From NCBI GenBank assembly GCA_947467145.1, contig CANIGJ010000006.1:62001-126000 (forward strand): a stretch of 64,000 nt of DNA, given 5' to 3'. The translations under genes and the position numbers were made by a program. Below are positions 32,176 to 44,210 of the stretch, piece by piece; within the stretch, counting starts at the first letter, position 1, and each line of letters starts with the position of its first letter. The DNA comes from Rhodospirillaceae bacterium (GTDB taxonomy: Bacteria > Pseudomonadota > Alphaproteobacteria > Rhodospirillales > UBA2165). A model generated the notes under the pieces. It was not told the origin of the DNA, made no database searches, and saw nothing but the letters and a program-made list of their open reading frames with translations.

Positions 32176-32179
<4 letters not shown>
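30779..32179 (-). CDS. mgtE: Magnesium transporter MgtE
   Basis: 466 residues. Domain order is the family norm: an acidic N-domain of helical repeats (residues about 40-145, EVAEAVAEMDSDDAIFVVGELDEHEQDALL), a CBS pair (about 150-275, IDDIVDVIDEEHEEDIM), and a five-helix pore (about 300-466) with MGGTASVQTLTVAVRA. The CBS and N-domains close the channel when cytosolic Mg2+ is high. The start overlaps the stop of the malic-enzyme gene by four bases, suggesting coupled translation. Confidence 0.95.
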
Positions 32180-34482
<2,303 letters not shown>

Positions 34483-37385: not shown

Positions 37386-38396
37386 ATGACGTCATTCAAA
37401 TACGCGCTCGGCGTGCTTGCCGTGTTCGCCTGCTCATCGGCGCAGGCCCAAGACATCACCTTCAAAGGCCAGGATGTGACGGTGAGCGTCGGCGTCGGCC
37501 CGGGCGGCGGCTACGATACCTATGCGCGCCATTTCGCCCGCCATCTCGGCAAGCACCTGCCCGGCACGCCGAACGTCATCGTCAAGAACGAGCCGGGTGC
37601 GGGCAGCCTCAAGCTTGCGGTGCGCATGTACAACGCGGCGCGCAAGGACGGCACCGAATTGGCGCTGATCCCCTCGTCCGTGGCGCTCGAACCGTTGTTC
37701 GGCAATTCGGATGCGCAGTTCGATACCAACAAGCTCAATTGGATCGGCAATCTCGATTCCGATATCTCGAGCTGCGGCGTGTGGAAACACGCCAACGTGA
37801 AAAGCTGGGAAGATCTGAAGACACGCGAAATCATCTTCGGCGCGACCGGCCCGTCGGCCATTACCTCGATCCATCCCAACGTGATGGCGTCGCTGGTCGG
37901 CCTGAAGATCAAGGTGATTTCCGGTTACGCCGGCACACGCGACATCAATGTCGCGATGCAGCGCGGCGAAGTCGATGCGACTTGCGGCATGTATATGAGC
38001 ACCATCCGCTCGCAGTATCAGCAGAACGTCGATGCCGGCGAGTTGTCGATCCTGATGACCTTCGGCAAGGAACGCACCAAGGATTTCCCGAACGTCGCCA
38101 GTCTGTTCGAATTGGTGAAGCCCGGCGAAGATCGCCAGTTAGCCGAGCTGATCTTCGGCGCCGACGCCATCGGCCGCCCGATCGCCGCACCGCCGGGCAT
38201 GGCGCCCGAGCGTGTGGCGCTGTTGCGTAAGGCGTTCGACGCCACCGTCGCCGATCCGGACTACATCGCCGAGGCCGCCAAGATCGGGCTCAGCATCACC
38301 TCGATGCCGGGCGCCGAACTGCAAAAGCAATTTGCCGCGTTCTACGAAGCGCCGAAGGCCGTCGTCGCCAAGGCGCAAACCGTGATGGGGCGCTAA
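37386..38396 (+). CDS. TctC/Bug family tripartite tricarboxylate transporter binding protein
   Basis: 336 residues with a signal peptide (SSAQAQ cleavage). The family fold is shown by VSVGVGPGGGYDTYARHFARHLGKHLPGTPNVIVKNEPGAGS, GATGPSAITSIHP, and VISGYAGTRDINVAMQRGEVDATCG. Bug proteins capture carboxylates or similar small acids in the periplasm for TctAB. No tctA/tctB pair is next to it, so it may be an orphan receptor. RBS is CAGGGAG, 5 bases before ATG. Confidence 0.93.
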   Translation: MTSFKYALGVLAVFACSSAQAQDITFKGQDVTVSVGVGPGGGYDTYARHFARHLGKHLPGTPNVIVKNEPGAGSLKLAVRMYNAARKDGTELALIPSSVALEPLFGNSDAQFDTNKLNWIGNLDSDISSCGVWKHANVKSWEDLKTREIIFGATGPSAITSIHPNVMASLVGLKIKVISGYAGTRDINVAMQRGEVDATCGMYMSTIRSQYQQNVDAGELSILMTFGKERTKDFPNVASLFELVKPGEDRQLAELIFGADAIGRPIAAPPGMAPERVALLRKAFDATVADPDYIAEAAKIGLSITSMPGAELQKQFAAFYEAPKAVVAKAQTVMGR

Positions 38397-38579: not shown

Positions 38580-39002
38580 ATGTGCCCAACCAAAAAATTC
38601 CTGCTGGCCGCCGTCAGCGCCGCCATTCTGACCGGCGCCAACCTGCCCGGTCTCGCACAGGCACAAAGCGCGGGTGCCTCCGGCGGAGCCTCCGGCACCG
38701 GCAGCAGCATCGGCGGCAATGGTGCGGGCTCCGGCAATCTCGGCAACAATCTGGGGACCATTAGCCCGGGCACCAATCCGACCGGCTTGCCGCCGGGTTC
38801 GCCCGGCTCGGGCACGCTAGGTTCCAAAGTCGACGGCGCGGTCAACGGCAGCAACCGCCTTCCCGGCATCACGCCGTACCCGAGCGCGACGGGTAGCGGC
38901 ACGCCGGTTCCGGAACTGGCGCGACCGCGCAGTTCGGGCGCGGAGATTGGGGGAACGGCCGGTGCTAGCGGACGCGGTGCGGTGGAGATTCCGCCGCGCT
39001 GA
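38580..39002 (+). CDS. Exported Gly/Ser-rich low-complexity protein 1
   Basis: 140 residues. A signal peptide (AAILTGANLPGLAQAQ) leads into a Gly/Ser/Asn/Pro-rich chain: GASGTGSSIGGNGAGSGNLG, then a P/G region ending GAVEIPPR. No catalytic motif. GAAGGG lies 9 bases before the ATG, supporting it as a real gene. It shares its overall plan with the next gene (39132), but the two are not obviously repeats of one another. Function unknown; perhaps an envelope or matrix polymer. Confidence 0.72.
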   Translation: MCPTKKFLLAAVSAAILTGANLPGLAQAQSAGASGGASGTGSSIGGNGAGSGNLGNNLGTISPGTNPTGLPPGSPGSGTLGSKVDGAVNGSNRLPGITPYPSATGSGTPVPELARPRSSGAEIGGTAGASGRGAVEIPPR

Positions 39003-39131
39003 TTCGGGCGCAGTCCCAGCGGATCTCGCCGACCATCCGATGACACAATGTGTAAAGTTTTTGATAGGAACCAACTTGGCCCACTTCCCCTTTCGTGAGT
39101 GTTAGGACTTCACGCACGAAAGGGATCATCA

Positions 39132-39575
39132 ATGGTTTCGAAGAAAACGTTTCTCGCGGTGGCTGCTGCGCTGACCGCGACTGGGTTGTTGTCGGCAACG
39201 CAGATCAACGCCGCGCCGCAGGTTCCGGTTGAGATGCTGATCGCTCAGGCCAATGTCGGCGCGGGCGCTAACGCGGGCACCAGTGTCGGCGTACAGCTGC
39301 CGGGTGTCGGCGTGGGTGCCGGCGCAGGTGTCGGTGCGGGCGCAGGCGCCAATGGCTCGGGCTCGAGCAATGGCGGCGCGAGCGGCTCGGCCTCGGGCGG
39401 TGCGAATGCCGGCGCGGGCGCCAACAGCAATTCGTCGGGCAGCGCGGGTGCCGGTGTCGGCGCCAGCCGTTCCGGGGCGGGCTCGGCATCGGGCAATGGC
39501 TCCGGCGTGGGCATCGGCGGTTCCGGCTCGGCCGGCGCTTCCGGTTCTGGCGCGGTGCGCGTTCCTGGCCGCTAA
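39132..39575 (+). CDS. Exported Gly/Ala/Ser-rich low-complexity protein 2
   Basis: 147 residues. Signal peptide MVSKKTFLAVAAALTATGLL, cleaved near NAAPQ. The mature chain is almost only Gly, Ala, Ser, Asn and Val (GVGVGAGAGVGAGAGANGSG), ending GAVRVPGR. The ATG at 39132 has AAGGGA about 8 bases before it. The ending resembles the end of the previous gene (GAVEIPPR). A strong bidirectional terminator follows. Function unknown. Confidence 0.72.
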   Translation: MVSKKTFLAVAAALTATGLLSATQINAAPQVPVEMLIAQANVGAGANAGTSVGVQLPGVGVGAGAGVGAGAGANGSGSSNGGASGSASGGANAGAGANSNSSGSAGAGVGASRSGAGSASGNGSGVGIGGSGSAGASGSGAVRVPGR

Positions 39576-39598
39576 TCGCCATCGCTCAAAGCTAAAAC

Positions 39599-39636
39599 AA
39601 AGCCGCCGGTCATCCGTGAGGACGACCGGCGGCTTT
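39599..39636. terminator. Bidirectional Rho-independent terminator
   Basis: AAAGCCGCCGGTC (39599-39611) and GACCGGCGGCTTT (39624-39636) form a 13-bp stem with a 12-base loop. It has TTTTGTTT after it on the plus strand and TTTGTTTT on the minus strand. It separates the convergent genes ending at 39575 and 39659. Confidence 0.93.
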
Positions 39637-39658
39637 TGTTTGTTAGGCGTATCGACGG

Positions 39659-40033
39659 TCAGTGCAAGCCCGAGCCGCGATTGGTGATGCCAGACCCGCC
39701 GCCGTAAACCGGATTATTGCCGATCGGTTGGCCGGCGCGCAGATCGTTCTGACGCTGAATGCAGTCCTGCCGCGACCGCGGATCGCTGATCTGCGCACAC
39801 TGATCGGAGCCTGCCGCACGCGGCGCGGTGCTGCTCGGTCCGCTCGGAACGGCGTTCGGATTGACCATCTCACCGCCGCGATTGGTGCCCATACCGGTCG
39901 GCGAACTGGCGCTATTTGCTTGGGCGAGCTGCATGGGTGCTGTGGCGGTCTCGGCGCTGGCGTGGCCGGCGGAGAAACCAATGAGTGCGGCCGATGCCGC
40001 TGCGACGACGGAGAATGTCTTCAAATCGATCAT
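39659..40033 (-). CDS. Small exported Cys-motif protein A
   Basis: 124 residues with a signal peptide (SAALIGFSAGHASAE). The mature protein is polar and disordered-looking, with a pair of cysteines in QCAQISDPRSRQDCIQRQND that could form a disulphide. The same QC-x-x-[IL]-x-x-PR-x-RQDC pattern recurs in the protein at 40394-40789. The start has AAGGGAA 7 bases before it. Function unknown. Confidence 0.72.
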   Translation of the reverse strand: MIDLKTFSVVAAASAALIGFSAGHASAETATAPMQLAQANSASSPTGMGTNRGGEMVNPNAVPSGPSSTAPRAAGSDQCAQISDPRSRQDCIQRQNDLRAGQPIGNNPVYGGGSGITNRGSGLH

Positions 40034-40147
40034 GCGGTTGTTCCCTTATTGCAAGTCCGGGGGCGGACAAGGATTCAACCGAGCAAGGTTAGGGTCGTTC
40101 CGAAATCAGGCCCTCACGATCTTGCGACGACGCAAAGGTCACATGTC

Positions 40148-40381
40148 TTAAACGCGTTTCGCGCTTTCGCCCGCCGACAGGGCCGCGAGGTCGGCCGGGA
40201 CCATTTCACCCAGCAACATGCGAGCACGCGATTGCGCATCGAGCCCGGCCAGGGGCGCAATTTTGACTTCGCCCTGATATTGGACCTTTACCGCGTCGCC
40301 TTCGACGACATATGTCCCGCTATAGGGTTTGCCGTCGCGCGCGACCTCAACCGTGTGAACGCCATCTTCCGGATCGGACAT
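40148..40381 (-). CDS. Small hypothetical protein (77 residues)
   Basis: 77 residues, no signal peptide, mixed beta sheet. Sequence such as VEVARDGKPYSGTYVVEGDAVKVQYQGEVKIAPLAGL suggests a small beta-barrel domain. No family is recognised. AGGAG 9 bases before the ATG supports translation. It lies 12 bases after the stop of the upstream exported protein and is likely co-transcribed with it. Confidence 0.68.
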   Translation of the reverse strand: MSDPEDGVHTVEVARDGKPYSGTYVVEGDAVKVQYQGEVKIAPLAGLDAQSRARMLLGEMVPADLAALSAGESAKRV

Positions 40382-40393
40382 GGTTTACGCTCC

Positions 40394-40789
40394 TTACTTG
40401 CTGCCGCTGCTCACGACCAAGGTGGGCTCAACGGACGCATTGACGGCCGCGGCCGGCGACGGCCCGCTGCTCACACGGATCATGCAGTCCTGACGTTCGC
40501 GCGGGCTGGTGAGACGGCCACATTGCCCGACCGCCATGGTGCTGGTCAGTTGCGGGCTGTGGGTGCGCCGCCCGGTCGAGGGCGCCGATTTGCTTTCGGT
40601 ATCGAAGCGCGGCGCCAAGATCCGGGGCGCATCCAGATCCGAACGCAATTCCTGGCCTTGGGCCGGCGATGCCAGCGCGAACGACATCCACAGATTTAAC
40701 GCGCACATCGCGAAGAGTGCGGCGACGAGCCCGGCGGCGCGCAGATCGCTGCGAAAATATGGTCCAGTGCTGATCCCAATTTCAGTCAT
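40394..40789 (-). CDS. Small exported Cys-motif protein B
   Basis: 131 residues. One hydrophobic N-terminal segment (LVAALFAMCALNLWMSFALA) acts as an anchor or signal. The C-terminal part has QCGRLTSPRERQDCMIR, matching the Cys motif of protein A at 39659. The start at 40789 (MTEIGIST) has AGGAACC upstream and is preferred over an in-frame start at 40846. Function unknown. Confidence 0.7.
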   Translation of the reverse strand: MTEIGISTGPYFRSDLRAAGLVAALFAMCALNLWMSFALASPAQGQELRSDLDAPRILAPRFDTESKSAPSTGRRTHSPQLTSTMAVGQCGRLTSPRERQDCMIRVSSGPSPAAAVNASVEPTLVVSSGSK

Positions 40790-40973: not shown

Positions 40974-41228
40974 ATGGATTACACTTCCGCCGTCGGCTAC
41001 CTCGCCGCCCTGATCACCACCGCCTCCAACCTGCCGCAGGCGATCAAGTGCTGGCAGACGGGCGAGACGCATGACATCTCGCTCAAGGCCTTCATCATCC
41101 TGGCCGCCGGCCTCGGCACCTGGGTGGTTTATGGGGTGTTGAAGAGTGACGTTCCGCTCATCGCCGCCAATGCGATTTCAGCAGCGATCGCGCTGTCCAT
41201 CGTCGCGGCGAAATTGAAGAACGGCTAG
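40974..41228 (+). CDS. SemiSWEET-type sugar transporter
   Basis: 84 residues with three helices, the bacterial SemiSWEET fold (half of a SWEET). The proline-glutamine loop is TTASNLPQAIKCWQTGETHDISL in helix 1-2. Members dimerise to transport mono- or disaccharides. The start codon lies 184 bases from the divergent Cys-motif gene. It ends convergently, sharing CTAG with the next gene. Confidence 0.9.
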   Translation: MDYTSAVGYLAALITTASNLPQAIKCWQTGETHDISLKAFIILAAGLGTWVVYGVLKSDVPLIAANAISAAIALSIVAAKLKNG

Positions 41229-41675: not shown

Positions 41676-44096
41676 TCAGCCGCCCACGCTGGTGGGCTTG
41701 CCAAGGTCGGCCAGGATCTGGCGCACCTTCACCGCCAAATCCTCCATCGTGAAGGGCTTGGGAATGAAGTTGATGCCCGTATCGAGGATGCCGTTATGGA
41801 CCACCGCATTGCGCGTGAAACCGGTAGTGAAGAGCACGCGCATATTGGGACGGCGCGTCAACACCTCGTCGGCCAACTGACGGCCGTTCACGTCGGGCAT
41901 CACAATATCGGTGAACAGCAACACGATCTCGGGATGCTGATCGACAATTTCGAGCGCCTCGATCGCGTGGCCGGCCTGCAGGACCGTGTAGCCCAGCTCG
42001 CGCAGGGTATCGGCCGTCAGCTGGCGCAGGCGATCCTCGTCCTCAACCACCAAGATGACTTCGTCCGCCGACCCACCGGCGATGGGCCGCGATTCGCGTT
42101 GTACGGTCGCCGGCATGGCATCGCCGTAATGACGCGGCAGGTAGATCTTGATCGTCGTGCCGTGGTTCGGCTCCGAATAGATCTTGATATGGCCTTTGGA
42201 CTGTTTAACGAAACCATAGACCTGCGACAGGCCGAGTCCCGTCCCCATACCCGTCTTCTTCGTCGTGAAGAACGGATCGAACGCGCGATCGACCACATCG
42301 GCGGTCATACCGGTGCCGGTGTCGCTGACCGCGATCTGGACATATTGGCCGGCGCTCGTGCCATCGTTCTCGCGGCAATATTCGTCATCGAGATAGGTGT
42401 TCGCCGTCTCGATCGTCAGGCGGCCGCCGTCGATCATCGCATCGCGCGCATTGACGCACAGATTGACCAGCGCGTTTTCCAATTGCGGCGCATCGGCGAA
42501 GGTCTTCCACAGGCCGGCGCCCAGCACGGTTTCGACGCGGATCTGTTCGCCGAGCGTGCGGCGCAGCAGTTCCGACATATTGCTGACCAGACGATTGGGT
42601 TCGACCACGTCGGGCGCCAGCGCCTGCTGACGCGAGAAGGCGAGCAAGCGGCTGGTCAGGGTCTTGGCGCGGTTGACGCCTTCGAGCGCCGTATTGACGA
42701 AACGCTGCAGATCGTGGGTTTCGCCGCGATCGAGCCGACGCTGGATCAGGCTGAGGCTCGACAACATGATCGACAGCATATTGTTGAAGTCGTGCGCGAT
42801 GCCGCCGGTGAGTTGGCCGACCGCTTCGATCTTTTGGAATTGCCGCAGATCGCTCTCGGCCTTTTCGCGTGCCGTCATCTGGGCGAGCAATTCGGTATTG
42901 ATCTGCGCCAGCTCGCGCGTGCGCTCATCGACCTTGGCTTCCAGGATCTCGGCATGCGCGCGCACCTGTTCGGCGGCGAAGGCCAGCGCATCCTGCACGG
43001 CAGTGAATTCGCGCAAGGATGTCTCGACGCGTACCGGCGTGCGCATATCGCCGACCTGACGCCCCGCCACGGCGAGCCCGGCCAACGGCCGCGCCACGAA
43101 GCTCCACAGCCACAGGGCGATCAAGGAAGTGCCGAGCAGCACGATCGCGCCGAAGGCGGCGAGGATATAAAGCGAATCGCGCAACGGCGCTTCGATCACG
43201 GCCTGCGGGATATTGGCGGCGACCAGCCAATTGCCGATCGCGGTATGCGAATAGCCGACCAGCGCCGGCCGGCCACCGCTCGGCCCGATGAAGGTACCTT
43301 CGAACTTATTCGCCAGGGCGAGATATTCCGGCGCGCCGGGCTTACCGGTCACGCCCTCGTGATTCTGTGAGCGCGTGACATAGACGCCGTTGGCATCGCC
43401 AACACCAATGATCCAGCGCGGCGGCGTGACCGCCTTGATCACCTGATGGAAGTGCAACGAATCGACACTGACATGCAGCAGGTATTGCTTGCCGGAATTG
43501 GTTTTGACGGCAAGCACGATCGTGACAATCGGATTGCCGGTGCTGACCGCATTGACCACGTTGGTGACAACCGGCTCGCTCGTTTCGAGGGCGCGATCGT
43601 CCACCGAATAAGGGCTGCGCGGCAGTTGATCGCGCTCTTCATAGGGCCGACGTGTGTTCCAAAGCTGCTGACGGTCTTCCACGCGACGGATCGCGATGTT
43701 GACGCCACCGAAGGATTTGACCCGCTGCGCCTGCTGATACAACGACTCCATATCGTCATTGGCCAAAGCGTTCGATAACGCGAGCGTCTGCAACGTCGTC
43801 TGCAAGCCCTGCAGGTTGCGATCGATCGCGGTCGCGGCGGCGCGCGCCACGCCGATGCCTTCAAGCTCGTAACGCGCCCGTTCGGATTCCGCGTAACGCA
43901 GCAGCAGGAAGCCGGCGAACAGGATGCCCGGAATGACGAGAACGGCGACCAGCGCCAGGATGATGGCCTGGGTGGGGACTCGCCCGCGGGGGCGCGTGGG
44001 GGCCAAGGCGGCGGCCATGCGGGGAATATCGTCCTGCATCTCTGAACTGGCCGTTTTCGGCTCGTTGAGCGGAGAAACCGCCAGCGGCGGAGACAT
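41676..44096 (-). CDS. Hybrid histidine kinase with extracytoplasmic sensor
   Basis: About 806 residues. After a cytosolic N-terminus, a membrane helix (AIILALVAVLVIPGILFAGFLLL) leads to a large periplasmic sensor with dCache/PDC-like features (VDDRALETSEPVVTNVVNAVSTGNP). A second helix and a HAMP-like stretch follow. The kinase has His435 in GGIAHDFNNMLSIML, HATPase motifs (SDTGTGMTADVV, GTGLGLSQVYGF) and a C-terminal receiver with Asp730 (LLFTDIVMPDVNG). Start chosen at 44096 (GGAG upstream); two further in-frame starts lie 5' (44132 ATG and a TTG). Ligand unknown. Confidence 0.92.
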   Translation of the reverse strand: MSPPLAVSPLNEPKTASSEMQDDIPRMAAALAPTRPRGRVPTQAIILALVAVLVIPGILFAGFLLLRYAESERARYELEGIGVARAAATAIDRNLQGLQTTLQTLALSNALANDDMESLYQQAQRVKSFGGVNIAIRRVEDRQQLWNTRRPYEERDQLPRSPYSVDDRALETSEPVVTNVVNAVSTGNPIVTIVLAVKTNSGKQYLLHVSVDSLHFHQVIKAVTPPRWIIGVGDANGVYVTRSQNHEGVTGKPGAPEYLALANKFEGTFIGPSGGRPALVGYSHTAIGNWLVAANIPQAVIEAPLRDSLYILAAFGAIVLLGTSLIALWLWSFVARPLAGLAVAGRQVGDMRTPVRVETSLREFTAVQDALAFAAEQVRAHAEILEAKVDERTRELAQINTELLAQMTAREKAESDLRQFQKIEAVGQLTGGIAHDFNNMLSIMLSSLSLIQRRLDRGETHDLQRFVNTALEGVNRAKTLTSRLLAFSRQQALAPDVVEPNRLVSNMSELLRRTLGEQIRVETVLGAGLWKTFADAPQLENALVNLCVNARDAMIDGGRLTIETANTYLDDEYCRENDGTSAGQYVQIAVSDTGTGMTADVVDRAFDPFFTTKKTGMGTGLGLSQVYGFVKQSKGHIKIYSEPNHGTTIKIYLPRHYGDAMPATVQRESRPIAGGSADEVILVVEDEDRLRQLTADTLRELGYTVLQAGHAIEALEIVDQHPEIVLLFTDIVMPDVNGRQLADEVLTRRPNMRVLFTTGFTRNAVVHNGILDTGINFIPKPFTMEDLAVKVRQILADLGKPTSVGG

Positions 44097-44210
44097 CACA
44101 GCTCCGGGATCATCTCCCACTCTCCGGTCCATCGTCCCCCGCCCCAATCACGCTTCGCCAGTATCGTCAGGCGACCTTAGCGTTTCCGGCGGAAAATCGC
44201 ACCCTCGAGC

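Follow-up and report, generated by a model that had tools for sequence, protein, structure and literature searches.

Two of five small genes clustered in the analysed window (the whole 64,000-nucleotide stretch of a Rhodospirillaceae bacterium contig), genes C and E of the cluster A to E (Table 1), encode proteins that appear to belong to a set of seven, each with a signal peptide, a disordered linker and a cysteine hairpin near the C-terminus, because five further small exported proteins of the same genome end in the looser pattern C-x8-R-x2-C. Such a set points to envelope proteins of an undescribed and fast-changing kind; the word "undescribed" refers to searches of Pfam, NCBIfam and PHROGs (the latter for A-E only) and of the literature, in which nothing was found on such a bacterial motif.

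The five ORFs were all found at positions 38580-40789, in agreement with an earlier sequence-only reading that had placed five small genes in approximately 2.2 kb, and are flanked by a TctC-type receptor gene (37386-38396, plus strand) and a SemiSWEET transporter gene (40974-41228, plus strand). The two Gly/Ser/Ala-rich exported proteins of that reading correspond to A and B, whose signal-peptide starts were recognized by eye, and its 77-residue protein to D. Genes A and B, on the plus strand, converge on E, D and C, on the minus strand; the ends of B and C are 83 bp apart, with a 17-pair stem-loop in the gap that is likely a terminator, and D starts 12 bp past the end of E. Terminator-like sites were not in excess over the whole region (4 vs. 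2.9 in shuffles, sd 1.9), and the remaining three have 5 pairs each, vs. 17 for the stem between B and C. For B, the ATG at 39132, behind AAAGGGA, was preferred over the GTG at 39099. As judged by eye, the N-termini of A, B and C are ordinary-looking signal peptides, and E has a longer stretch ahead of its hydrophobic segment, which may be either a signal peptide or a membrane anchor.

Table 1. Location of the analyzed genes, motifs and hairpin-bearing proteins (positions of the window unless a locus is given)
Feature	Location	Strand	Description
A	38580..39002	+	140 aa, Gly/Ser-rich exported protein; mature part without Cys
B	39132..39575	+	147 aa, Gly/Ser/Ala-rich exported protein; without Cys
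C	39659..40033	-	124 aa, exported; disordered linker and Cys hairpin
D	40148..40381	-	77 aa, without signal peptide
E	40394..40789	-	131 aa; N-terminal hydrophobic segment and Cys hairpin
Cys motif of C	39761..39802	-	QCAQISDPRSRQDC
Cys motif of E	40484..40525	-	QCGRLTSPRERQDC
C-terminal GAVEIPPR of A	38976..39002	+	shared with B
C-terminal GAVRVPGR of B	39549..39575	+	shared with A
17-pair stem-loop	39599..39636		between the ends of B and C; scan lists minus strand
C28-i, C28-ii, C28-iii	L151 12168-13521 (contig C28)	-	adjacent small exported hairpin proteins
C1 protein	L131 17-457 (start of contig C1)	-	146 aa, exported; terminal hairpin
G096 protein	L173 1399-1815	+	138 aa, exported; two tandem hairpins

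All five ORFs are taken as genes. Their small size and biased composition, together with the lack of homologues of A-C in the searches made, could indicate that some of them are not genes, yet this is very improbable given the Shine-Dalgarno-like stretches seen by eye ahead of all five, the placement of the long stem precisely in the gap between B and C, the signal peptides and shared motifs, and the G+C content, which peaks at codon position 3 in all of them but D (0.67 at position 3, below the 0.74 at position 1).

The motif QC-x-x-[IL]-x-x-PR-x-RQDC, previously claimed to be common to C and E and to link genes of otherwise unlike sequence, is fitted exactly by QCAQISDPRSRQDC in C and QCGRLTSPRERQDC in E, and BLASTP between both proteins was significant over that stretch only (13/29, E = 4e-6, as a single comparison). 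A cruder comparison was less striking: the best ungapped 14-mer between them has 8 identities, and in 2000 shuffles that preserved composition this value came up 6 times. Searched as a DNA pattern in 297 genomes of the order, C-x2-[IL]-x2-PR-x-RQDC was present in a single one, the own genome, with two occurrences (C and E), and its reversed control had no match in the same 297 genomes. With the leading Q, the motif had one match in a public genome collection that may exclude the window's own genome; this match, in a Porphyromonadaceae bin, was judged to be out of frame, another frame looking coding there. On these two results the strict motif is not common, and the pattern search that the sequence-only reading had proposed showed it to be specific rather than widespread in unrelated proteins.

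A looser pattern was found at 17 places of the own genome, C and E included, vs. 6 in the reversed control, and among those places read in frame one more was convincing, C28-iii, which ends in CAKIANPAERRKCIQTSG. C28-ii and C28-i adjoin C28-iii, all three being located just beyond secA. The C1 protein, recovered by a second pattern and by an earlier weak match of C, ends in QCQAIYDMADRQTCINRTQGGR and carries three GDVAG units; GDV[PAS]G units are also present in C28-ii. An ORF scan for C-x8-R-x2-C covered 850,071 bases (23% of the genome, made up of the window plus 40 stretches) from contigs C1, C6, C28, C8 and C9, a sample that is not random, since C1, C6 and C28 were chosen for known members. 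It yielded 157 occurrences, 15 of them with a signal-like start under a crude rule, and six of these were convincing by eye: C, the C1 protein, the three C28 neighbours and C28-iv. E, missed by the crude signal rule, is the seventh bearer. Four of the five additional bearers are thus encoded on contig C28 and one at an end of contig C1, and the usual form of the hairpin among the seven is C-x2-[IL]-x-[DNS]-x3-R-x2-C. When a profile of eight hairpins was run over the whole own genome, the matches listed were the seven bearers, with four weak ones at E <= 1 beyond those listed; the seven bearers had built the profile, so that the search adds only that it revealed no other close copy.

In an all-against-all BLASTP of nine sequences (cut-off E = 0.001), C matched E, C28-iii and the C1 protein, C28-i matched C28-iii and the C1 protein, and C28-ii matched the C1 protein through their shared GDVAG repeats; C28-iv had no match below 0.001, the best being 0.004, with C28-i. 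The hairpin of C28-ii lacks both the [IL] and the P, and this protein is tied to the set only via the repeats. The two cysteines and the arginine are invariant in eight aligned proteins, namely the seven bearers and a counterpart of C28-iii in G001, the other genome of the genus. Common descent is hard to prove with so short a motif; nevertheless, based on the BLASTP pairs and on the invariant residues, we infer that descent of all seven bearers from a common ancestor, though not proven, is likely.

The counterpart in G001 is syntenic with C28-iii, sharing with it three neighbours in conserved order (an alpha/beta hydrolase, 81% identity; an FMN-dependent dehydrogenase, 78%; and a second hydrolase, 84%), and no second match to the hairpin profile was found in G001 below E = 0.18. 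Both proteins are identical at 11 of the 13 motif residues and at 13 of the 49 others, and therefore the hairpin is the constrained part in this syntenic pair. The comparison, a single one at the sequence level, says that the hairpin would be kept while the chain drifts.

Searches in relatives and in family libraries were also performed. No family was found at cut-off for A-E in Pfam, NCBIfam or PHROGs, nor for the other bearers or the G096 protein in Pfam and NCBIfam. In none of the relatives searched was the five-gene cluster recovered, and the conservation of its order, suggested earlier as a check, was not borne out: of 100 genomes, none of the 99 besides the own one matched C at E <= 0.001, and neither E nor D had a convincing relative there. 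For E, the own genome and seven others of the 100 matched at E <= 0.01; these seven matches were rejected, all with stops inside and their loci (L010-L016) without the motif in a six-frame scan. Two plasmid records that matched C at E = 2 and 6 were not credited either. One loose pattern matched 51 of 100 genomes, including the own one, and its reversed control also matched many; when the loose-pattern loci were fetched and read in frame, no exported bearer was recognized outside the genus. Relatives of the SemiSWEET gene were present in 8 of 24 genomes of the family, own included, and no match to the other 14 window proteins tested was found in their short flanks. Two observations concern other genes of the window. 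The hybrid histidine kinase (41676-44147, minus strand) was matched elsewhere only in its C-terminal kinase part: in other genomes of the family, matches at E <= 1e-60 covered only residue 316 onward, and the N-terminal sensor part had no match at that threshold. At 32176-34482 (minus strand), a malic enzyme is fused to a phosphate acetyltransferase-like domain; its best matches in the plasmid collection were Azospirillum proteins, at 60% identity, which suggests that the DNA comes from an alphaproteobacterium.

The hairpin profile matched 135 of 150 order genomes at E <= 1, vs. approximately 63% under perfect E-values, an excess that may reflect either signal or the calibration of a 26-position profile; below E = 0.001, solely the eight sequences used to build it were retrieved. 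Among 28 further profile loci that were read (L173-L200, the wrong frame being evident for at least five), one exported bearer was recognized, in L173 of G096, a genome from another family of the order. This protein resembles the bearers in its signal-like start and disordered-looking tail, and differs from them in having two hairpins, CARIKDAREKQKC and CARIKGTREKQEC, of the form C-x2-I-x-[DG]-x3-K-x2-C, with Lys where the bearers have Arg, followed by a tail rich in Lys and Asp. Moreover, when the profile was compared with the PDB, the sole sequence at E <= 10 was the C-terminal 36 residues of AP7 from abalone nacre (2jyp, E = 0.0089), and the reversed profile had no match in the same set. 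Like the bearers, AP7 is secreted and partly disordered, and its stretch CYSITDPGERQRCI resembles the C-x2-I-x-D-P-x2-R-Q-x-C-I of the bearers. Unlike them, it is an animal biomineral protein, with four cysteines, vs. two each in mature C and E, and the match spans 14 residues, which alone would be no proof of kinship. The C-terminal domain of AP7 is described as taking part in self-assembly and in mineral nucleation in vitro, and its four cysteines as probably binding metal (PMC6003135).

We read the likenesses to AP7 and to the G096 protein as pointing to a mini-fold that is portable or recurrent rather than to kinship. Taken further, they could mean that the hairpin is cheap and arose several times in unrelated exported orphans, C and E being just a local pair. 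Most bearers indeed fail to align outside the hairpin, and the number of order genomes with a profile match at E <= 1 exceeds a well-calibrated expectation. We nonetheless consider several origins rather unlikely, as three bearers are adjacent on contig C28, the window has two within 1 kb, C28-ii and the C1 protein have repeats in common outside the hairpin, and the 150 genomes yielded only the building sequences below E = 0.001. The description of the AP7 cysteines also bears on whether the two cysteines of the bearers bind metal or serve in redox exchange instead of forming a structural disulphide. Such a role is improbable: each hairpin has two cysteines, that of C is devoid of His, Met and further Cys, the best PDB match is short and of modest E-value, and no metal or redox family was matched in the family-library scans.

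Other known systems were compared with the bearers. The EexN lipoprotein family (NF033894), also composed of small exported proteins, was weakly matched by residues 4-58 of C28-iii (E = 0.015), most of its length, and C28-iii has a lipobox-like LAAC (by eye), in line with the bearers being small entry-exclusion-like lipoproteins or similar surface immunity proteins. However, C28-iii scored 15.2 bits vs. the family cut-off of 33 bits, five other bearers scanned (including the G001 counterpart), as well as C and E, were not listed at E <= 1, and no lipobox was evident by eye in the G001 counterpart, C or E, making this identity most unlikely. VasI/TagO, a type VI secretion accessory protein, has a CaxIxDxxxRLxCYD stretch with the same C-x8-R-x2-C spacing as the bearers; VasI in Pfam was matched neither by A-E (E <= 1) nor by six further bearers (E <= 5). 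Hydrophilins, which are Gly-rich and disordered like the bearers, are defined by Gly > 6% and hydrophilicity > 1. Among the eight proteins computed (mature starts set by eye, C28-iii left out), C28-iv alone has both properties (6.8% and 1.22), and hydrophilicity was below 1 in A, B, C, E, C28-i, C28-ii and the C1 protein, which thus fall outside the definition.

Regarding the three remaining genes of the cluster, GAVx[VI]PxR is common to the C-termini of A and B, in a stretch picked after inspection in which 9 of the last 13 residues are identical, vs. at most 8 in 20,000 draws of the mature composition. Among 100 genomes the pattern matched 15 times, in 13 of them (the two own matches included), and 8 of the 15 matches end in TGG, which the pattern allows and which is not a stop; it is not rare, since its reversed control matched equally (15). 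Both matches in the own genome fall in neighbouring genes, A and B, and for this reason they link the two, which are likely a diverged tandem pair as judged from their sequences. For D, a structure with four strands and two helices was predicted (mean pLDDT 77.9), and Foldseek found no match to the model at E <= 0.001, nor was there a match to D in the plasmid collection; a weak match within a 360-aa frame of one other genome of the 100 was not convincing as a relative. Given the lack of a signal peptide and the predicted beta-rich fold, D need not be part of the exported set.

The AlphaFold2 model of C alone had a mean pLDDT of 53.4, with the hairpin region well above it (85 and 79 for residues 81-90 and 91-100, respectively), and contained two helices, a short one over residues 79-81 and a longer one over 85-99. 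A disulphide would join Cys79 and Cys91. The balance of probability leans slightly towards C, E and the five other bearers being exported, mostly unfolded proteins, each with one disulphide-closed hairpin knob as a contact site. The seven would be exported via their signal peptides, on whose basis alone an envelope location is plausible, and would remain largely unfolded except for one short C-x8-R-x2-C hairpin near the C-terminus. Outside the inner membrane, where conditions are oxidising, the cysteine pair would most likely close one disulphide, stapling the short helix to the longer one, so that the flexible chain would carry a small, stable knob. Being the constrained part, this knob would likely be the contact site, and the chain would act as a fast-changing spacer. 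The proteins might also be parts of a joint structure, of the envelope or of a matrix, as the sequence-only reading had proposed. A and B, in turn, would be similar exported, disordered filler.

Exported proteins that are small and disordered tend to be treated as isolated orphans. In this genome, seven of them are connected by a hairpin of 13 residues, whose two cysteines and arginine provide a concrete handle on the role that such proteins may have in the envelope.
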